Position numbers and translations under genes: made by a program. Shown here piece after piece: positions 1-9,149 of a stretch of DNA of 64,000 nt (the stretch's first letter is position 1; every line of letters starts with the position of its first letter). Location: positions 868,001 to 932,000 of the forward strand of contig CAILAC010000016.1 of the NCBI GenBank assembly GCA_903832055.1, read 5' to 3'. Under the pieces are notes generated by a model that had not been told where the DNA came from, did no database searches, and saw only the letters and a list, made by a program, of their open reading frames with translations. The DNA comes from an uncultured Acidobacteriota bacterium (GTDB taxonomy: Bacteria; Acidobacteriota; Terriglobia; Terriglobales; Acidobacteriaceae).

Positions 1-2
1 CC

Positions 3-665
3 GACGCGGCAGTACATCCCGTAATCGGCCCAAGACTTCAGGGTGTTCGGGCAATGAGACTGGCAAGCACAAAAATCGCAACACAAAAAGGCGCATCAAA
101 ACCACACAGGTTTGATGAGCGACGGCAATCTGGCAACGAAGCAGTCATTGCCATTGCAGCCATTAGTTCAGAGAATCGCGATTACCTCCCGTGCGGAATA
201 CTGCAAAAGGGCACCATCATATCGAATAAATGTTTCGCACTGTTCGACTCCCCTCTCTGGAACATGGCCTTAGTCGCATCGCGACTTCATTGGGTTTGGA
301 TAGCCACCGTTTGCGTGCGTCTGGAAATGCGGTTTTCATATTCGAACACGCTTGGTTGGAACACATTCCCGGTTCCACTACTGACGGAGAAGAACAAGGC
401 TGACCTCACCCGCTGTGCTGAAGACATCCTCTTGGCTCGGGAAGCACACTTCCCGGCGACGATTGCCGACCTCTACGAACCAGACAACATGCCCGAGGAC
501 TTGCGCCACGCCCATGAGCGCAACGATGAAGTTCTGGAACGTATCTACATCGGTCGCCGGTTCAAGAACGATACCGAGCGATTGGAAAAACTCTTTGAAC
601 TTTACACAAAGATGGTCGCCTCGGCGGGATTGGTCAACAGGAGAAAAGGGGAAATAGGAGAATGA
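3..665 (+). CDS. MmeI/YeeA-type DNA methyltransferase, C-terminal part (5' end outside window)
   Basis: The frame is open leftwards to the first base of the window, so this is the 3' end of a longer gene and the in-frame ATG at 54 is unlikely to be the real start. The visible part matches the target-recognition and C-terminal region of MmeI/YeeA-like (type IIG or BREX-PglX-like) N6-adenine DNA methyltransferases: a segment RLASTKIATQKG, then ISSENRDYLPCGIL, then YSNTLGWNTFPVP and a helical tail. The catalytic NPPY-type motif and any nuclease domain would lie to the left and cannot be checked. The stop codon overlaps the next start as ATGA, indicating translational coupling. The likely role is sequence-specific DNA modification, and possibly restriction, for the downstream helicase/nuclease genes. 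The family call is from motif memory. Confidence 0.75.
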   Translation, partial: DAAVHPVIGPRLQGVRAMRLASTKIATQKGASKPHRFDERRQSGNEAVIAIAAISSENRDYLPCGILQKGTIISNKCFALFDSPLWNMALVASRLHWVWIATVCVRLEMRFSYSNTLGWNTFPVPLLTEKNKADLTRCAEDILLAREAHFPATIADLYEPDNMPEDLRHAHERNDEVLERIYIGRRFKNDTERLEKLFELYTKMVASAGLVNRRKGEIGE

Positions 666-1057
666 GCATTGTGATTTGGCCGTCATTCTTTCCATCGGAG
701 TGCCCACCTACAGAGGCTGAAAATGCATCTGTCGAGGTATTTAGAATCGTTTCATTCGACCCACCAGCAGCGTGCGATTTTCAATCTTTCGCGCAAACTC
801 ACCCCAAGAAATATCAGGGCAAGTGCAAGCCTTCCGGGCTTTCGGTATTCACGGGGATGGAGGATGCACTGAAGTATCTGAGAAGAGTGCAGGGTGAGGC
901 TCAGGGCGTAGTTCCAAGGCGTCTTATCGCACGTGCACTGCTTTCACCACAGGCTGGAAAAATTCAGCATACTCCGAGCGCCTCGCACAATTCGCACCAT
1001 ACATGGTGGGCACCAGATGGTTTCGACCACGCCGCGACATTTAAGGTGGTGACATAG
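662..1057 (+). CDS. Conserved-looking 131-aa protein of unknown function in the methylase-helicase operon
   Basis: It overlaps the methyltransferase by ATGA and the helicase by a single shared base (TAGTG), so it is embedded in the operon and almost certainly translated. The protein has a mixed composition with no signal peptide or membrane segment. Visible landmarks are FRIVSFDPP near residue 27, an SGLSVF segment near 58-63 and a C-terminal HTWW at 113-116. This layout is reminiscent of small unannotated proteins found beside restriction-like genes, but I cannot name a family. It might be a specificity, immunity or adaptor component. Function unknown. Confidence 0.7.
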   Translation: MSIVIWPSFFPSECPPTEAENASVEVFRIVSFDPPAACDFQSFAQTHPKKYQGKCKPSGLSVFTGMEDALKYLRRVQGEAQGVVPRRLIARALLSPQAGKIQHTPSASHNSHHTWWAPDGFDHAATFKVVT

Positions 1058-3480
1058 TGGAACTGTTTACGGAAGGAACGACCCTCGGAGCATTGAAGGT
1101 ACTCGAAGTCTACGAGTACTATGACGGCCCGCGTCTCTTCGCGTCGTTGAATGAACGACGTTCGATTTTCCTTGTACTTTGGACTAGATTCAGAGGCACC
1201 AGCGACGAATACTATGTCCAACCACTGTCGATTCAGCGACTCCGAGAACTGCGTGAGGGCGTGATAAGTCTCCGCGAGGCTTTCAGCCAAGACACCGGGC
1301 TCGTCGTTCTGGAGATTGACCGCGAGTCTGGCACGGCGAGTACCCGAAGTCTGAAAACTGGCCAAATGGAAATATCGCTACTTCCCTTGCAAGGTGAAGC
1401 ACTGAACTTGACCTCACCCTTACCAATGGCTGAATTGAAAATACAAATCCCCTCTGTTTCCGTAACCTACGCCCACAATGGCAGTTCAACCCGCTCCAAT
1501 GCTTTCGGCATGAGGCCGATGCAGGAGCGGGTCTACGAGAAGCGTGGAGAGCAGTACTTGATTATCAAGTCACCGCCAGCATCGGGAAAAAGTAGAGCCT
1601 TGATGTTCGTTGCCCTCGACAAGCTTGAGCATCAGGGCATCAAACAAGCCATCATTGTGGTGCCAGAACGTTCCATCGGCGCGAGTTTCAATGACGAGCC
1701 GCTTTCACAGTTCGGCTTTTGGGCTGACTGGCATGTTGAACCCAAGTGGAACCTGTGCAACGCTCCGGGCGGTGGGAACGGCGGCATGGTCAATGCTGTA
1801 GGCGCGTTTCTTGAGAGCACAGCCAAGCTTCTGGTCTGCACACATGCGACGTTCCGCTTCGCCGTCAATGAATATGGCGTGGAGAAGTTCGATGACCGTC
1901 TGATTGCCGTGGATGAGTTCCATCATGTCGCCGCAAACGAGGGCAACATCCTTGGCAGGTATCTCAGCCAGTTCATCGCCCGGAACCGAGTACACATTGT
2001 CGCCATGACCGGCTCGTACTTCCGTGGCGATGCCGGGGCTATCCTCGACCCGCTGGATGAGAGCAAATTTGAGACAGTCACCTACACGTACTATGAGCAG
2101 TTGAACGGGTACCAGTACCTGAAGCAACTCGACATCGGCTACTACTTCTACAGCGGCTCTTACACGGACGAGATTCTGAGCGTGCTTGACCCAACGCAGA
2201 AAACGATTGTTCACATCCCGAACGTCAATTCGCGGGAGAGCACGCAGGACAAGATTAAAGAGGTCGAGCACATCATCGGGGAGATGGGAGAGTGGCAGGG
2301 CACGGACCCGGCAACTGGCTTCCAGCTTGTGAAGATTGCAAGTGGCACAGTGCTTCGAATCGCCGACCTTGTGGACGATGAACCCGCAAAGCGCGACCGC
2401 GTTGTGAGCGCGTTGAAAGACCCCGCCCAAAAGTTCAACCGTGACCACGTGGACATCATCATCGCTCTGGGCATGGCGAAGGAGGGCTTCGACTGGATTT
2501 GGTGTGAACACGCCTTGACGGTTGGCTATCGCTCCAGCCTGACAGAAATTGTGCAAATCATTGGGCGTGTGACTCGCGATGCCGTGGGGAAGACCCGTGC
2601 TCAGTTCACCAATCTCATTGCCGAGCCGGATGCCGCTGAGGAGGCCGTCTCTGAAGCCGTCAACGATACGTTGAAGGCTATTGCGGCCAGCTTGCTCATG
2701 GAACAGGTACTAGCTCCCCGCTTCGAGTTTCGCCCAAAGAATTCGGCGAACCAAGCCACTCCCGGCTACGAGTATGGGGTCGGGGGCTATGACGAGAACA
2801 AATGCAACGTAGGCGTCAACGAGCAGACGGGTGCAATCCAAATTGAAATCAAAGGGCTGACTCTGCCCAAGAGCAAAGAGGCAACTCGCATCTGCCAAGA
2901 AGACCTGACTGAAGTGATAGCTGCCTTCGTGCAGGACAAGACGGCCATCGAGCGTGGCATGTTCGATGAAGAACTCGTACCGGAAGAACTGACGCAAATG
3001 CGTATGGGAAAGATTGTCAAGGACAAGTATCCCGAGCTAGAAGCTGAAGACCAAGAGGCTGTCCGCCAGCACGCCATTGCCGCACTCAACTTCACCCAAC
3101 AGGCGAAGCGACACTCCGGGGGTGGTGGCGATGAGCCGACCGCGAACACGGCATTGATTGAGGGCGTGCGAAGGTTTGCTATGGATGTTCGCGACCTCGA
3201 CATTGACCTGATTGACCGCATCAATCCGTTCGGTGAGGCTTACGCCATCTTGGCTAAGACGATGAGCGAGGAGAGCCTGAGGCATGTCGCAGCGGCAATC
3301 TCGGCCAAGCGGACAGCCCTGACGCCCGAGGAGGCGCTTGACCTTGCCAAGCGTGCCTCACGATTCAATAAGGAACACAATCGGTTCCCGTCGCTCACCG
3401 CACAAGACCCATGGGAACGCAAGATGGCGGAGGGTGCTGCTGCCTTCGTTCGCTTCAAGGATGAGGGGCGTTATGTCTGA
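1057..3480 (+). CDS. SF2 DEAD/DEAH-box helicase with an N-terminal DUF6575-like extension
   Basis: This is an 807-aa protein starting at GTG 1057, which overlaps the previous stop codon. Helicase motifs are visible in order: Walker A SPPASGKS (172-179), motif II DEFH (286-289), motif III TGS (318-320), KEGFDW (475-480) and motif VI QIIGRVTR (500-507). It is therefore an intact RecA-like SF2 ATPase of the kind used by type I/III restriction and other defence systems. Residues about 10-80 (EYYDGPRLF to LREGVISLREAF) resemble the small DUF6575 module, here fused in front of the motor; that assignment is tentative. The long C-terminus after residue 520 has no domain I recognise. The gene overlaps the downstream nuclease by 8 bp (ATGTCTGA), so the two proteins are probably made in fixed ratio and act together as a DNA-translocating nuclease complex (inference). 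Confidence 0.85.
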   Translation: MELFTEGTTLGALKVLEVYEYYDGPRLFASLNERRSIFLVLWTRFRGTSDEYYVQPLSIQRLRELREGVISLREAFSQDTGLVVLEIDRESGTASTRSLKTGQMEISLLPLQGEALNLTSPLPMAELKIQIPSVSVTYAHNGSSTRSNAFGMRPMQERVYEKRGEQYLIIKSPPASGKSRALMFVALDKLEHQGIKQAIIVVPERSIGASFNDEPLSQFGFWADWHVEPKWNLCNAPGGGNGGMVNAVGAFLESTAKLLVCTHATFRFAVNEYGVEKFDDRLIAVDEFHHVAANEGNILGRYLSQFIARNRVHIVAMTGSYFRGDAGAILDPLDESKFETVTYTYYEQLNGYQYLKQLDIGYYFYSGSYTDEILSVLDPTQKTIVHIPNVNSRESTQDKIKEVEHIIGEMGEWQGTDPATGFQLVKIASGTVLRIADLVDDEPAKRDRVVSALKDPAQKFNRDHVDIIIALGMAKEGFDWIWCEHALTVGYRSSLTEIVQIIGRVTRDAVGKTRAQFTNLIAEPDAAEEAVSEAVNDTLKAIAASLLMEQVLAPRFEFRPKNSANQATPGYEYGVGGYDENKCNVGVNEQTGAIQIEIKGLTLPKSKEATRICQEDLTEVIAAFVQDKTAIERGMFDEELVPEELTQMRMGKIVKDKYPELEAEDQEAVRQHAIAALNFTQQAKRHSGGGGDEPTANTALIEGVRRFAMDVRDLDIDLIDRINPFGEAYAILAKTMSEESLRHVAAAISAKRTALTPEEALDLAKRASRFNKEHNRFPSLTAQDPWERKMAEGAAAFVRFKDEGRYV

Positions 3481-4669
3481 TTTCAATCTGGACGACCTCA
3501 GGGATGAACTGGATGTCTTCGCAGAGCCTAAGAAGACGCAGGAGCGCTCCGCTGTTGAAGAGAGGGTCATTGCCGGGTTCGAGGAGATTCAACGCTTCGC
3601 TGAGAAGCATGGTCACCCGCCGCAGCACGGTGAAGATAAGGATATCTTTGAGCGCCTGTACGCGGTTCGACTTGACCGGCTGAGGAAGCAAGATGAGTTG
3701 CGTGCCCTGCTTGCCCCCCAAGACCGTCAGGGGCTGCTGGTAGCGTCGGCAGAGCCTTTCGATGGCGATGGTGACACTGACCTTGATGAACTGCGTGCGG
3801 AACTCGAAGGCGCTATCGGCACAAGCGATATTACCGAGCTACGACATGTCCGGAGTAGCGTTGAGAAGCGTGCCGCTGAAGAGATTGCCAACCGTGCCGT
3901 CTGTGAAGACTTCGATGAGTACAAGCCCCTCTTTGAGCGAGTGAAGCGGGAACTTAAGGAGGGTGTGAGACAGACTCTCCCCTTCCAAAACTTGGACGAG
4001 ATTAGGCTGACTGAGATTCAGGACAACCAATTCTTCATCGTTCAGGGGCAGATTGCTTACATCGCCGAGGTTGGTGAAGACTTCAAGACGCAGTACGACC
4101 GGCGTGACAGCCGTCTGCGGGTCATCTATGACAACGGGACGGAAAGCGATTTGTTGATGCGGTCGTTCCAGCGTGCGCTTCATCGGGACGAAACAGCACG
4201 CATCATTACCAACACCGACAACGGGCCGTTGTTTGCTCAGGAGCCAGCCGGTGACGAACTCGCCAGCGGTACCATCTACGTCCTGAGGAGCAAGTCAGAG
4301 CAGCCCGAGATTGCAGCGCACCGGGACGTGCTGCACAAGATTGGCGTGACGGGTGGCAAGGTTGAAGCACGCTTTGCGAATGCCAAGCTAGACCCAACAT
4401 TTCTGATGGCTGATGTTGAGGTAGTTGCGACATACGGCCTCTACCAGATAAACCGGGTCAAGCTGGAGAATCTCATTCACCGCGTGTTCGACAGCGCACA
4501 GTTGGATTTAGAACTGAAAGACCGCTTCGGTACCCCGGTCAAGCCGCGTGAATGGTTTCTCGTGCCGCTCTACGCTATAGACGAAGCCGTGGAACGCATC
4601 AAGGATGGGTCAATCACCGGGTACGTGTATGACCCGGTGGTGGCACGGTTGGTGAAGGCAGGGTCGTAA
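3473..4669 (+). CDS. GIY-YIG nuclease family protein (T5orf172/MUG113-like)
   Basis: I chose ATG 3473 because it overlaps the helicase stop (ATGTCTGA) and begins MSDFNLDDL; the upstream open frame from 3338 is only helicase gene read out of frame. The product is 398 aa. The C-terminal third is a GIY-YIG nuclease core of the T5orf172/MUG113 type: GTIY (266-269), KIG (289-291), Arg300, and Glu332 in LENLIH, matching the conserved Tyr, Arg and Glu positions. The N-terminal ~180 residues are acidic and probably helical, suitable for partner binding. With the helicase and methyltransferase this looks like the cleavage subunit of a restriction-type defence system (inference). No DNA-binding domain other than the nuclease is obvious. 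Confidence 0.85.
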   Translation: MSDFNLDDLRDELDVFAEPKKTQERSAVEERVIAGFEEIQRFAEKHGHPPQHGEDKDIFERLYAVRLDRLRKQDELRALLAPQDRQGLLVASAEPFDGDGDTDLDELRAELEGAIGTSDITELRHVRSSVEKRAAEEIANRAVCEDFDEYKPLFERVKRELKEGVRQTLPFQNLDEIRLTEIQDNQFFIVQGQIAYIAEVGEDFKTQYDRRDSRLRVIYDNGTESDLLMRSFQRALHRDETARIITNTDNGPLFAQEPAGDELASGTIYVLRSKSEQPEIAAHRDVLHKIGVTGGKVEARFANAKLDPTFLMADVEVVATYGLYQINRVKLENLIHRVFDSAQLDLELKDRFGTPVKPREWFLVPLYAIDEAVERIKDGSITGYVYDPVVARLVKAGS

Positions 4670-4692
4670 AGAACTTTGAAGAGTGGAAAGGT

Positions 4693-5667
4693 ATGTTCAT
4701 CGACGCACAACGGTTCAACGGAGCAAGTGACATGGAGAACGAAACCAAGCAGCAGACAGTCGTTGAGTGGTGGCAATCAAAAGCTGCAAGACCGGAACTT
4801 GAGGGATGCGCTTCCAAGCTTAATGAAGCACAAGACACCCAAGACCTTGTTCACAGGTTCTCAACGTACGCACAGGCTCTCAACCTCCTGTGGAGCAGCA
4901 AGGCAAGACTCAGTAATGACAGGGAGCGTTCAGATAGCCAAGGATTTCGCGACATCCTCCTGTCTTTACCGGCTTCTCGGCAAAAGGAACTCTGTGATTC
5001 CTCGGAGATGCTGGCTCTTGCAAACTTCGCTCCCCAAATCTTGAATGTTAAGACGCTCCGAGAATCTGAACTTTACGTCCCCGACGAAACAATTCCACAC
5101 AGGCTGAAGACTGACGCTTCAGTAGAGCATAGACAACTCACAAATTCACTAAAGCGGTGGCACGACAACCCGACCGAAGAGACTCGGTTGCAGACGTTAA
5201 GAAAGCTAGGAACGCTCCTGTATGTCGTTCGGTCTAACATCGCTCACGGTGAAAAGACAATGCGTGGCCCAGACTCCGCCAAAGCTGAGCGCGACAAACA
5301 AGTCTGCGAAATCGCACTTCCGATGATTCACGCGGTTGCGGATGTTCTGCTTGACTATCCCACGCGAAAGTTAATCGCGTATGGCACTCTGAGGCCATCC
5401 GAACCCAACCATAAAGTCTTGGAACCTCTCACCGACCAACAGTGGATGGACATTGAGGTTGAAGGAACAATAGTTGACCGAGAGGCAGGACTGAAAGGCT
5501 TCCGGTGGTGCGACTCAAGGACTCGCCATAAAGCCATGCTTCTGAAATCCTCACAGCTTCCATCATTTTGGGGAAGACTCGATTCTTTCGAAGGCAGTGC
5601 ATACCGGAGGACATTGGCTACGGCCTTAGTGGGCGAACTCACAGTTGTAGCAACCATCTATCAGTAG
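4693..5667 (+). CDS. HEPN-like domain fused to a gamma-glutamylcyclotransferase (GGCT/AIG2-like) domain
   Basis: This 324-aa protein lies 23 nt after the GIY-YIG gene. ATG 4732 (residue 14) has a clearer GGAG at 4720-4723 and may be the true start. Residues about 50-220 are all-helical with RSNIAH (R180-H185) in the context LYVVRSNIAHGEK, a textbook HEPN Rx4-6H signature, implying RNase or toxin-like activity. Residues about 227-324 form a GGCT fold: YGTLRP (230-235) for substrate binding and LDSFEGSAYRR (296-306), in which E300 matches the conserved catalytic Glu. The pairing of a HEPN domain with GGCT is unusual. It could be the effector or abortive arm of the upstream system, or an independent toxin controlled by a small-molecule-processing domain. 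Both readings are inference; a standalone antitoxin gene is not seen. Base composition is low in G+C (27 of 60 bases in 5041-5100). Confidence 0.75.
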   Translation: MFIDAQRFNGASDMENETKQQTVVEWWQSKAARPELEGCASKLNEAQDTQDLVHRFSTYAQALNLLWSSKARLSNDRERSDSQGFRDILLSLPASRQKELCDSSEMLALANFAPQILNVKTLRESELYVPDETIPHRLKTDASVEHRQLTNSLKRWHDNPTEETRLQTLRKLGTLLYVVRSNIAHGEKTMRGPDSAKAERDKQVCEIALPMIHAVADVLLDYPTRKLIAYGTLRPSEPNHKVLEPLTDQQWMDIEVEGTIVDREAGLKGFRWCDSRTRHKAMLLKSSQLPSFWGRLDSFEGSAYRRTLATALVGELTVVATIYQ

Positions 5668-5697
5668 CGAGGCAGCGCCCACTCCTGACTCCATGTA

Positions 5698-6510
5698 TCA
5701 AAACAGCGAGGGCTGTAGGGGAGCAGTCGTCTTCTTCGGATAAAACACGCCGATGATGACCCACGTCTTCGGATGAGCAAGTATCGTGCCTACGTAAAAA
5801 TGAGTGTCCCGGTTGGAAGCGCACAACTGTTCAAGGAACTTCAGCCTCACTTTCTGACAGGCTTCGGTAGGGCTTGCACCGTCATCGACGCAGTTCCAAT
5901 ACAGTGCCGGGACCTCCCAATCCTCAATCATCATTCGATGAGAGCCTTTACAGCGACGGTCGTCGCAAGCGAACTTGTATTGAAATTTCCAAGGCAGCTT
6001 GCGGGGAGGCTCTTTGCTTGCCTTGCGGTTTTCCCAAAGTCTCTGCTGGCTCAGTGCGGCCTTGAACGACGGTTTCCAGTCAGGTTCTGAGGGCACCCAC
6101 ATGAGGTCAAAAACTTCCTTGGGCTTGAAGATTCCGAGCGAAGTCCTGTCGGAATTTTGCTTGGCGTAAAGCTCCTCCATCGACTGTGAGCATTTCGCCA
6201 ATGCAAACCGACCTCGCTCCACCCAGTTGTCTTTGGATAAAAGCGGTTCCCCGAGAAGGCGAATGCTGTCACACTGTGGGCGGTAGCTTTCTTTTCGGGA
6301 GTCACGCCCGGTGTGTTTCGCGGCATCGACTTCGAGCCACTGATACTTCTTGTACTGCTGGCTGTAAGATAAGTCTCGAAAATTGATTGGATACAGCCGA
6401 ACAAAATCCCCTGCCTCAGTCACGCCAGCCGTGCAAACAAGCTCGTCGTACTTGGAGGAAGGAATCGGCTGTGTCTTTACGGTGATGAGAACTTTCAGGT
6501 GCTCCAGCAT
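5698..6510 (-). CDS. DUF488-partner protein with a Cx5C-x-GSH motif, function unknown
   Basis: The frame is open up to 6570, but I favour ATG 6510. It lies one base after the DUF488 stop and begins MLEHLKVLITVKTQPIPSSK, the expected N-terminus of the family; ATG 6528 is an alternative. The 270-aa soluble protein has DELVCTAGVTE followed by RLYPINFRDL near the N-terminus, a possible metal or structural motif CDDRRCKGSH before an IEDWE segment, and a conserved-looking C-terminus HFYVGTILAHPKTW. I recall proteins of this shape commonly encoded beside DUF488 genes in genomic islands, but know no activity. It converges with the HEPN-GGCT gene, with 30 nt between the stops. Confidence 0.7.
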   Translation of the reverse strand: MLEHLKVLITVKTQPIPSSKYDELVCTAGVTEAGDFVRLYPINFRDLSYSQQYKKYQWLEVDAAKHTGRDSRKESYRPQCDSIRLLGEPLLSKDNWVERGRFALAKCSQSMEELYAKQNSDRTSLGIFKPKEVFDLMWVPSEPDWKPSFKAALSQQRLWENRKASKEPPRKLPWKFQYKFACDDRRCKGSHRMMIEDWEVPALYWNCVDDGASPTEACQKVRLKFLEQLCASNRDTHFYVGTILAHPKTWVIIGVFYPKKTTAPLQPSLF

Positions 6511-6511
6511 C

Positions 6512-7381
6512 TCACAGGTGTACAACATCGAGCTTGTTAAGGGCCGAGATGCGGTTGGCAAGACGACCACGGTGACAGTTCACTGCCTCTCTCTCCATGC
6601 AGAGGAGCACAGAAGGCGTTGCCTTCATTAACTCCGCAACTTTCATGGAATGGACTTCCTGTTCTGGCAGCATTTTGCTCTCGTAATAATTGAATAGCTT
6701 GAGGAAGTCTGTGTCGGACTGGACTTCCTTGCGGCGACTCGAAGGGATGCCCAATTCTGGACAGTGGACATATCCAATACCGAGTTTGGTAGCGAGGCCA
6801 GAGAGAGAACTCTTAGCAAATCCGAACTTCATCGAGACCGGGTTTGCTCGAACGTCTACGATGCGACGTATGCCGGAATGGAGAAGTTTGTCCAAAAAAC
6901 CATCCACGGAACGCCCTTCGTAGCCGATGGTGTAAATCGCGACTGGAGCCTTCTTGAGTTCTTTCGCTCCACTGGGAACCAGTTCCTGAAGCTCACTATT
7001 CCGGGCATACCAAGGGTATCTCGCGTACACATCTTTCAATAGCGGCTGGAGCCCAACCTTCCCGTATTTGGACACGATGGCAAGCACCGCACGGGTGGTA
7101 TCGCTGTCCACGTTCGCAGCCTCTCGTGCTCCGAGGGGGGTCAAGGCCAGAAACGAACCAGAAGCTGCAAGGTAGCCGTAAGCAGTGAGGGCTTCGACTT
7201 CACGTTGGGCCGCGAACGAGTACGGGCCGAATTTGTAGGGCAGAAAATCGTAGAAGGCCGAGTCCTGCTTGATAAAGGTCTCGTGACGAAGCAGGAACAC
7301 GTACTTCTGAAGCTTGGTCGCCGGAACAGGACAGTCTGCCGTACTGAAGAGTTTTAAGATTGTGCGTTGCCTTCGAAGCAC
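6512..7381 (-). CDS. DUF488 domain protein with winged-helix-like N-terminal domain
   Basis: The 289-aa protein has two parts. Residues 147-289 are a DUF488 domain: YTIGYEGRSVDGFLDKL, then DVRANPVS, and the diagnostic C-x-E-x(5)-CHR motif (C261, E263, C269-H270-R271). Residues 1-135 are helix-rich with LQKYVFLLR and FGPYSFAAQREVEAL, resembling the winged-helix YwgA/SocA-like modules found in antitoxin and defence proteins. The biochemical role of DUF488 is not established; the Cys-His-Arg signature suggests a cysteine-based active site or nucleic-acid-related enzyme. It is translationally linked to the downstream partner at 5698-6510 and transcribed away from the phosphatase pair across a 307-nt intergenic region. 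Confidence 0.8.
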   Translation of the reverse strand: MLRRQRTILKLFSTADCPVPATKLQKYVFLLRHETFIKQDSAFYDFLPYKFGPYSFAAQREVEALTAYGYLAASGSFLALTPLGAREAANVDSDTTRAVLAIVSKYGKVGLQPLLKDVYARYPWYARNSELQELVPSGAKELKKAPVAIYTIGYEGRSVDGFLDKLLHSGIRRIVDVRANPVSMKFGFAKSSLSGLATKLGIGYVHCPELGIPSSRRKEVQSDTDFLKLFNYYESKMLPEQEVHSMKVAELMKATPSVLLCMEREAVNCHRGRLANRISALNKLDVVHL

Positions 7382-7688
7382 TGGCAGACCCTCAGGGTCA
7401 GAATACCAAGTACGGAGGCAGCGGAGAAGTGACCAAATAGGCTCTTCCCTAATGCCAGATGAACGAAGGAGCCATTCAGCCGAGCGATATCCGCGTTAGG
7501 TTCAGACCTCACCTGCTTCCGGCCCGCTGCTGGCGGGTGACACGAGGCCGTCAAGCCGACCGAGGAAAACTTCTGAGGGCAAGTATCGTGTCGCGACGGT
7601 CTTGCCTACGATACGAATGGTTTCGTGATTTCAAGAATTTGTTTCAGGATTACTAGCTGAAAAACGAAGTCGGTTCGTATACTACTGC
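7382..7688. other. Divergent intergenic region with inverted repeats
   Basis: This 307-nt stretch separates the leftward DUF488 pair from the rightward phosphatase pair and must contain both promoters. I see no gene in it. It contains an inverted repeat GTATCGT (7583-7589) / ACGATAC (7608-7614), and a second, partly overlapping one, ATACGAA (7611-7617) / TTCGTAT (7674-7680), ending 8 nt before the GTG start at 7689. These could be operator sites for a local regulator, but no dedicated regulator gene is seen. Confidence 0.4.
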
Positions 7689-8009
7689 GTGTCCATCGAA
7701 ATCTCTCCTGCCCCTGACCTCTATCTGGTCGAATTCGTGCTAGGGCCGCAACCGAACGAGCGAATTTCCATTATTATCCCTGCCACTTGCGGACTGGCTG
7801 CGATGGCGAGGGTGTGGACGTTATTTCCGGAGTACAGAGCTGTCGCCAAACGCACTTCTGTTCACCCGGTGAAATATGTCGAGATTGATTGGCGCGACCT
7901 GCGAATCATCGTGAAGAAGGAGCGGCGTCCTTTCACCTCCCCGAGCGTGTTGAAAGTACCCAACAAGCGCAACAGAAAGAAGAGCCCCGATGAGGAGGAA
8001 GCTGAATGA
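7689..8009 (+). CDS. 106-aa protein of unknown function coupled to a phosphatase
   Basis: It starts at GTG 7689 and overlaps the phosphatase gene by ATGA, so the two are co-translated. The first 80 residues look like a compact alpha/beta domain (LYLVEFVLGPQPNERISIII ... YVEIDWRDLRIIVKK). The C-terminal 30 residues are highly charged and probably disordered (KRNRKKSPDEEEAE). There are no catalytic motifs, signal peptide or membrane segments. It may be a regulator or binding partner of the phosphatase; I do not recognise the family. Confidence 0.65.
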   Translation: MSIEISPAPDLYLVEFVLGPQPNERISIIIPATCGLAAMARVWTLFPEYRAVAKRTSVHPVKYVEIDWRDLRIIVKKERRPFTSPSVLKVPNKRNRKKSPDEEEAE

Positions 8010-8413
8010 CGCGAATCATGACAAACCTCTTCCTTGGAAGCCTTCGAGACGCCGAAGAACTCGCTGTGTCGAATCCACACAACATCAAGGCGGTCATCAC
8101 CCTGTGCGAGTCGTGGGTGGTTGAAAAGCGGCATGGCTTGCGCTACGTCCACATTCCTATCGAGGACGACGAGCCTGTCCCTATCTTTAAGTTCGACCGC
8201 ATCGTGAATGCCATCGGCGAGAACAGACGCAGAGGTGCCGTGCTCGTTCATTGCGGCGAAGGCGTGAGCAGGGCTCCTAGCCTAACTGCCGCCTACATGC
8301 ATGTCGTTGGCTACCTCAATATCGACTCGGCCCTTGCGGAAATCAAACGGCTAAGGCCATACATCAATCCCTCAGACACTTTACTGGAAAGCGTCAGGAG
8401 GCGTTGGGCATGA
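8006..8413 (+). CDS. Dual-specificity protein phosphatase
   Basis: The 135-aa protein contains the complete Cys-phosphatase P-loop HCGEGVSRAP: His82, Cys83 nucleophile and Arg89, i.e. HCx5R. An upstream acidic stretch IPIEDDE (50-56) can supply the general-acid Asp. Length and layout match small dual-specificity phosphatases (DSPc) that remove phosphate from Ser/Thr/Tyr in proteins or from nucleotides. It is translated from an ATG overlapping the 106-aa gene. In a defence-island setting it may counter a kinase or act on a nucleotide, but the substrate is not indicated by the sequence. Confidence 0.85.
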   Translation: MTRIMTNLFLGSLRDAEELAVSNPHNIKAVITLCESWVVEKRHGLRYVHIPIEDDEPVPIFKFDRIVNAIGENRRRGAVLVHCGEGVSRAPSLTAAYMHVVGYLNIDSALAEIKRLRPYINPSDTLLESVRRRWA

Positions 8414-8934: not shown

Positions 8935-9056
8935 AAAAACAGGGTGAACACGGGGTAAAACGAGGTATCAAGGAGACAGGAGAGACTCCGACGATTCCCT
9001 GTAAGCTATTGATTTTGAAGGTATTTGTTGAATCTAAAGGAATTTACTTGACAGGC

Positions 9057-9082
9057 TGGCGGAGAGAGGGGGATTCGAACCC
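9057..9082. other. Putative attachment site within the tRNA-Ser 3' end
   Basis: The island lies on the 3' side of the tRNA gene and the tRNA is intact, as expected if an element recombined at the T-arm/acceptor end and restored it. The partner copy of this sequence would lie to the left of the window and is not visible. Inference from position only. Confidence 0.35.
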
Positions 9083-9149
9083 CCGGTAGAGCTTTTGACC
9101 CTACAACGGTTTAGCAAACCGCCGCCTTCAGCCACTCGGCCATCTCTCC
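9057..9149 (-). tRNA. tRNA-Ser (anticodon GCT)
   Basis: Read on the minus strand this gives a complete class II tRNA. The acceptor stem is GGAGAGA / TCTCTCC with G discriminator and an encoded CCA (9057-9059 on the complement). It has the D-arm start GGCCGAGTGG, an anticodon loop with GCT flanked by T and A, a long variable arm, and the T-loop GGTTCGAATCC. The anticodon GCT reads AGC/AGU serine codons. The accessory island abuts its 3' end, the classic integration position for tyrosine-recombinase elements. Confidence 0.95.

Follow-up and report, generated by a model that had tools for sequence, protein, structure and literature searches.

A PD-T4-10-like gene pair joined to the helicase of a DnmA-YeeB-YeeC-type operon in an uncultured Acidobacteriaceae bacterium

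The core operon and its described relatives

Operons of the dnmA(yeeA)-yeeB-yeeC type, found in Bacillus subtilis and relatives, have been described as a putative Type I-like restriction-modification (RM) system (PMC7261158, PMC9973331), and deletion of the dnmA and yeeB homologues of Vibrio crassostreae raised sensitivity to some phages (study cited in PMC9973331). PD-T4-10 of E. coli is a two-gene, toxin-antitoxin (TA)-like abortive-infection system whose toxic protein B is neutralised by A (PMC9519451). Here we describe an operon with parts related to both, located at the left end of a 64,000-nucleotide stretch (the window; positions 868001-932000 of contig C16, G000:C16) from the 4.57 Mb genome of an uncultured Acidobacteriaceae bacterium. 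Collected loci carry L-numbers and sampled genomes G-numbers, G000 being the source genome.

Five open reading frames (ORFs), all on the + strand, fill window positions 1-5667 (Table 1). The dense packing reported in an earlier, sequence-only reading of this DNA is seen at every junction: the methyltransferase stop and the start of a 131-aa gene overlap in ATGA at 662-665, the stop of the latter (TAG, 1055-1057) has its G in common with the GTG start of the helicase (1057), the ATG of the GIY-YIG gene at 3473 comes before the end of the helicase gene (stop to 3480), and 23 bp separate the GIY-YIG stop (4669) from the ATG of the HEPN-GGACT gene (4693). We assign this anatomy, comprising gene content, gene order and the fusion described below, with high confidence.

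The methyltransferase part within the window matches the MmeI target recognition domain (E 1.3e-50) and C domain (E 4.5e-18) in Pfam. Leftward extension recovers the full gene, whose product carries the MmeI N, helical spacer, methyltransferase, target recognition and C domains, matches the MmeI structure 5hr4 at E 1.3e-138 and contains DPACGSG at residue 351 and NPPY at 491. A PD-ExK-like pattern, [DE]x(6-25)[DE]xK, is absent from residues 1-140, the N-terminal stretch covered by the test; assignment to Type IIG/IIL, the MmeI-like class with a nuclease inside the methyltransferase, was rejected on this ground. The helicase, of superfamily 2 (SF2), matches the Pfam DEAD domain (E 1.1e-6). Its motifs had been called intact, which holds for DEFH (286), TGS (318) and QIIGR (500) but not for the textbook GxxxxGK[ST], which finds no match where the translation reads PPASGKS. 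The nuclease protein matches MUG113 (E 3.6e-12) and T5orf172 (E 3.6e-11), and YVL, KIG and Glu332 (numbered from ATG 3473) are present in it.

An MmeI-like methyltransferase without a nuclease motif, followed 3' by an SF2 helicase and a T5orf172/GIY-YIG gene in identical order and on one strand, is the arrangement of DnmA(YeeA)-YeeB-YeeC in B. subtilis and relatives. By sequence, these three genes are that known set and not a new combination, and the candidate of an entirely unnamed system was rejected because the core already has this name. The sequence-only reading, which had found the combination unmatched, is half right: the core is already in print, and what is unusual is the 131-aa gene and the DUF6575 front of the helicase. 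Relative to DnmA-YeeB-YeeC, the window adds a PD-T4-10 A-like gene (the 131-aa gene), an N-terminal DUF6575 domain on the helicase and the trailing HEPN-GGACT gene.

Other restriction classes were compared by PADLOC, run on the operon (with the methyltransferase as its C-terminal 220 aa only) plus two neighbouring genes, and by NCBIfam, searched with the complete methyltransferase and the other proteins. Neither finds the subunits of Type I, Type III, BREX or DISARM (HsdS, HsdR, Res, PglZ, DrmA/B) in the operon. In PADLOC, the methyltransferase matches IIG and has a weak match to DrmMI, the matches of the helicase to PbeA, Cas3 and HamB are weak, and the neighbouring M19A protein matches a stretch of Type I specificity (E 1.8e-10); the NCBIfam matches (PglX, MADS2, dnd and one chance match) all lie far below cut-off.

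Relatives of the helicase recur on plasmids and viral contigs: tblastn returns 265 plasmid records (143 covering at least 80% of the helicase, 187 below 60% identity), a viral-contig scan 23 loci, and 7 of the 396 genomes of the phylum sample, G000 counted, carry one. The assembled collection holds 43 YeeB-type loci including the window, with near-duplicates L059/L060 and L055/L056/L062; five end at a contig edge at the helicase (L035, L038, L046, L047 and L058), leaving 38 informative on the fusion. The helicase body is 61-81% identical to that of the window across the 42 other loci, with L063 (45%) as the single outlier; a methyltransferase accompanies it in 36 of the 43 loci and a GIY-YIG gene in 42. 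One such operon, on an Agrobacterium plasmid, shares its locus with a predicted aminoglycoside resistance gene (L013:13717-13944).

The A gene and the DUF6575 front of the helicase

What is new at the locus, and went unnoticed in the first reading, is a gene pair related by profile match to PD-T4-10. Helicase residues 1-81 match DUF6575 (PF20215) at E 2.7e-17, and the helicase aligns with the PD-T4-10 B model (PDLC04024, E 0.0011) over positions 25-109 of 353; its first ~125 residues are assigned to DUF6575, a domain of toxin B. The 131-aa protein (hereafter A) matches PD-T4-10_A (PDLC04023) at E 1.4e-5, and its Edaphobacter counterpart does so at E 9.8e-8. As in PD-T4-10, a small A gene precedes a DUF6575 protein and the two ORFs overlap; the C-terminal part of the DUF6575 protein, in contrast, is here a restriction helicase and not the B C-terminal region. 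In the literature searched, we found no description of a covalent fusion between a TA-system domain and an RM helicase.

DUF6575 is attached to the helicase in 2 of the 38 informative loci, the window and L016 (Edaphobacter lichenicola M8UP22, of the same family as the source, sampled as G163). Methyltransferase, helicase and GIY-YIG recur together, but among the 43 loci, some of them incomplete, A occurs only in the window and L016, and the HEPN-GGACT gene only in the window. Of the 40 plasmid matches listed (from 265 records), 34 start within helicase residues 130-141 and none starts ahead of residue 75; no start before residue 107 is seen in the 23 viral matches. L016 has the order of the window, methyltransferase-A-DUF6575::helicase-GIY-YIG, with amino acid identities of 57-58% (A), 52% (DUF6575), 76% (helicase body), 68% (GIY-YIG) and 62% (methyltransferase). 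Both A and DUF6575 look to be under purifying selection because the ratio of nonsynonymous to synonymous rates (NG86 dN/dS) between the two loci is ~0.18 and ~0.19, respectively, at a dS of 1.8-1.9, which is near saturation; the frames are intact in both genera. The G+C content of third codon positions (GC3) is 0.50 in A and 0.56 in DUF6575 against 0.64, 0.68 and 0.65 in the methyltransferase, helicase body and GIY-YIG gene, which suits a later acquisition of the pair than of the core. A GIY-YIG tree of 18 rows groups the window with L016 (support 88/83), and a first helicase tree, with 38 of the 43 rows, leaves the placement of the fused helicases open. An internal start giving a helicase free of DUF6575 was considered and rejected: an in-frame ATG lies at residue 124 in the window and L016, with no clear ribosome-binding site before it, and the L019 fusion described below has ATC in place of the native ATG.

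Elsewhere, A and DUF6575 behave as a module. A genome-wide scan with one short peptide pattern from the A alignment, which misses relatives, gave 8 loci from 29 pattern stretches, and all 8 have a DUF6575 ORF 3' of A. This ORF has ~400 aa in L017, L018, L020, L021 and L022, is short in L023 (167 aa) and reaches 1230 aa in L019, and in L016 it is the helicase (813 aa). Two scans with the DUF6575 profile found 15 places (4 + 11), and A lies immediately upstream in 12 of them. DUF6575 ORFs that are short (136-167 aa) adjoin A in L083, L084, L085, L090 and L092 (the last from the genome of L023). Truncation may account for some of them, and in L083 A is short as well, at 93 aa. No convincing B C-terminal region was found by tblastn near these five ORFs, the one weak match in L092 (E 5.5e-4) lying ~3.5 kb off.

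The predicted model of A looks like an ADP-ribosyltransferase (ART) fold, a resemblance that sequence comparisons do not support: Pfam places none of nine A proteins in an ART family, and HHalign of A against RES gives Prob 0.2 or less. ARTs typically carry Arg on strand 1, Ser or Tyr on strand 2 and Glu on strand 5. In the alignment of 18 A sequences, R28 is conserved in 17/17 filled rows, S61 in 18/18 and His112 in 17/17, so that the strand 5 position is His112, with no Glu there.

The 1230-aa ORF of L019, a metagenome-assembled genome named Deltaproteobacteria bacterium P_S1_bin.14 (sampled as G386, grouped 'same phylum'), joins DUF6575 to an SNF2 helicase. In alignments with three native SNF2 proteins, residue 159 of the fused protein falls on their residue 1 (62, 56 and 53% identity, the closest from a Methanomethylovorans plasmid), the position of the native ATG reads ATC, and the plasmid matches (12 listed of 129 records) begin at query residue 120-135, past DUF6575. 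The native genes (L124, L125 and L126) head an operon SNF2-DUF4391-Mod-Res, and the genes downstream of the fusion are likewise DUF4391, Mod and Res (37, 51 and 66% identity). This Type III-like operon resembles the window in that A and DUF6575 are set in front of an RM helicase, where the native protein would begin, and differs in its unrelated helicase family, its different methyltransferase family and the lack of GIY-YIG among the genes read. Because this SNF2 fusion exists besides the YeeB-type one, the same pair is, by alignment, placed at the native helicase start in two unrelated RM operons, and it appears to be a portable module that has twice been welded onto restriction helicases. 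Upstream of the L019 operon lies a gene for a group II intron-type reverse transcriptase.

A suggested cargo slot, accessory genes and a probable carrier island

The junction between methyltransferase and helicase holds other genes elsewhere. Among the 36 loci with both genes, one or more ORFs lie between them in 13 (window and L016 counted), the two abut within 15 bp in 15, and in 8 either the gap is longer with no ORF called in it or the methyltransferase is broken; in this count, L097 is taken as occupied from its annotation, L060 nearly duplicates L059, and L011 and L098 have a fragmented methyltransferase. Among the occupants are RelE/ParE with an antidote (L012), YafQ (L033), DUF1016/YhcG (L059), RhuM (L057) and a CoiA-like protein (L050), while five loci carry proteins that match no Pfam family (L049, L093, L095, L097 and, in its first ORF, L099). 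In the Synechococcus plasmid locus (L012:45-7072), the order is methyltransferase, addiction protein, RelE/ParE toxin, antidote, helicase and GIY-YIG. This pattern suggests that, in DnmA-YeeB-YeeC operons, the junction serves as a slot for defence cargo. Genes 3' of GIY-YIG in related loci encode DUF4357, Abi_C, DUF4062 and GajA/OLD-like proteins. TA or guard genes within RM operons have precedents: DarTG2, whose DarT is an ADP-ribosyltransferase, is embedded in a Type I RM island (PMC12255303), PrrC acts as a guard in EcoprrI (PMC12707154), and PMC12255303 cites a 2024 preprint on the subject. Those genes remain separate, whereas in the window one partner is built covalently into the RM motor.

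The fifth gene was reported earlier as an operon member. Its ORF and a HEPN-like R-x4-H motif (RSNIAH at residue 180) are evident, and its GGACT match (E 0.0057, 17.6 bits) falls below the cut-off of 22.8; as a conserved member it fails, being absent from all 42 other helicase loci, some of them incomplete. Of 300 family genomes, 8 match, its own at full length and seven in the GGACT part alone, and none of 23 matching plasmid records reaches 80% coverage. The HEPN-GGACT gene is, on this distribution, an accessory gene. Homologues of PDC-M19A/B adjoin both fused operons (window 5698-7381, -; L016:14119-15826, +), in differing orientation, and are found in none of the 41 other helicase loci, some incomplete.

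At the 3' end of tRNA-Ser(GCT), 21 bp form one copy of a perfect direct repeat, in the window, and the second copy lies at C16:851598-851618 (= L002:2598-2618; L002 is a stretch of the same contig that extends left of the window and holds the left part of the island). A tyrosine integrase gene lies ~100 bp inside the distal copy, followed by an HTH_17 gene and a Prim-Pol primase, and the ~25 kb between the repeats also hold resolvase, Mom-family, REase-ARP and Mrr genes. Because of the repeats at tRNA-Ser and the integrase, the operon is most likely cargo of a ~25-kb mobile island integrated at tRNA-Ser. The Mom-family (DNA modification) domain is carried by a 604-aa ORF at L002:10828-12642 (-). 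With Mrr, REase-ARP, Mom-like and PDC-M19 genes in its neighbourhood, the operon reads as a putative restriction or defence operon, as proposed earlier; its defence activity we infer, as before.

Table 1. Coordinates of the operon, its neighbours and the second fusion (window positions unless a contig or locus is named)
Feature	Position	Strand	Basis or remark
DnmA/MmeI-like DNA methyltransferase, C-terminal part	1..665	+	MmeI Pfam domains; MmeI structure 5hr4
Complete methyltransferase gene, 928 aa	G000:C16:865879-868665 = L002:16879-19665		Full contig
PD-T4-10 A-like protein (A), 131 aa	662..1057	+	PADLOC match; predicted ADP-ribosyltransferase-like fold; R28, S61, H112 conserved
DUF6575 domain (D) at helicase N-terminus	1057..1431	+	Pfam PF20215
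DUF6575::YeeB-type SF2 helicase, 807 aa	1057..3480	+	Body from ~residue 131 (base 1447)
YeeC-type T5orf172/GIY-YIG nuclease, 398 aa from ATG 3473	3473..4669	+	Pfam, motifs
HEPN-GGACT fusion, 324 aa, accessory gene behind core operon	4693..5667	+	Pfam, motif
PDC-M19B homologue (PADLOC candidate), convergent with operon	5698..6570	-	PADLOC
PDC-M19A homologue with DUF488	6512..7381	-	PADLOC, Pfam
Dual-specificity phosphatase gene, between PDC-M19 pair and tRNA-Ser island end	8006-8413		
21-bp att-like repeat in 3' end of tRNA-Ser(GCT) (9057-9149, -)	9055..9075	+	Identical copy C16:851598-851618
A + DUF6575::SNF2 fusion heading Type III-like operon SNF2-DUF4391-Mod-Res	L019:9959-20152		

A proposed control of the restriction motor and rival explanations

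Our preferred reading, with a probability of roughly 0.45, is that A holds the DUF6575-helicase off until infection. Judged from MmeI, Type I enzymes and YeeABC, a specific site would be marked by the methyltransferase, which on unmarked DNA would load the helicase; the helicase would then translocate and bring in the GIY-YIG nuclease. By analogy with PD-T4-10, A would bind or modify the DUF6575 domain and so keep the restriction motor off in healthy cells, and infection would remove A or its signal and release the motor, the HEPN-GGACT protein serving as accessory effector cargo. Such gating would make self-damage by a mobile restriction system less of a risk. Tentatively, A and DUF6575 may be a portable control module, with A an ART-fold, antitoxin-like enzyme, that is repeatedly welded to helicases of different RM systems, NAD-dependent modification of DUF6575 by A keeping the motor latent until infection.

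Several observations count against gating by A. The B C-terminal region is not convincingly present in window positions 1-8000 or in L016 (tblastn with 12 such regions; best window E 0.061), and the locus is not filed as PD-T4-10 because of its absence; if the toxic part of B is this missing region, A may lack a target to neutralise. DUF6575 occurs without A in L082, L086 and L087, and the short DUF6575 ORFs beside A may leave the effector partner undecided. The helicase fusion is seen in two species only, and in a helicase tree of 18 rows the sisterhood of the two fused helicases is neither shown nor rejected (approximately unbiased test, p 0.584). DnmA-YeeB-YeeC of B. subtilis gave no protection against three phages (PMC9973331) and did not restrict plasmid transformation (PMC7261158).

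The main rival makes A and DUF6575 an abortive-infection unit: the helicase would sense a phage block or overload, upon which DUF6575 would let A, as an ART-like enzyme, or itself hit the cell, like PrrC in EcoprrI. TA or nuclease genes filling the methyltransferase-helicase slot of other loci (13 of 36 occupied) are in line with such a guard, and the invariance of R28, S61 and H112 in filled rows of the A alignment suits an enzyme, but the third of these positions is His and not the Glu usual in ARTs. DarTG2 in a Type I RM island (PMC12255303) and PrrC (PMC12707154) provide precedents, yet in PD-T4-10 it is B that is toxic and A that neutralises, the reverse of A as effector (PMC9519451). On balance, a guard role is possible though rather doubtful. 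That A and DUF6575 merely aid docking of the helicase on the methyltransferase or DNA, with no switching, would agree with their position between the two proteins and with a helicase body that is otherwise complete; this is unlikely, however, as 36 of the 38 informative loci do without the module, and the same module is also carried by an SNF2 helicase, which is unrelated, and by PD-T4-10-like B proteins that have other partners.

Slightly less likely still is a relic, a TA cassette that landed between methyltransferase and helicase and decayed to a harmless fusion; any function left to the operon would be that of an orphan methyltransferase, the role proposed in B. subtilis. The missing B C-terminal region, the lower GC3 of A and DUF6575 and the inactivity of the B. 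subtilis operon against three phages (PMC9973331) would fit, but the low dN/dS with frames intact in two genera, the independent second graft in L019 and the presence of most helicase and GIY-YIG motifs speak against decay. A recent chance fusion was rejected on the same purifying selection and second independent graft.

Gating by A, if true, bears on a control problem, since a mobile restriction system has to spare the DNA of a naive host; one solution would be to link a TA module covalently, and repeatedly, to restriction helicases. Such a link would also help to explain the PD-T4-10 pair, whose function its discoverers were unable to predict. A gains a first fold hypothesis, and the 131-aa and 125-aa proteins are offered as testable. 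If the pair is indeed a portable module, the operon would represent a restriction system under toxin-antitoxin-style control.

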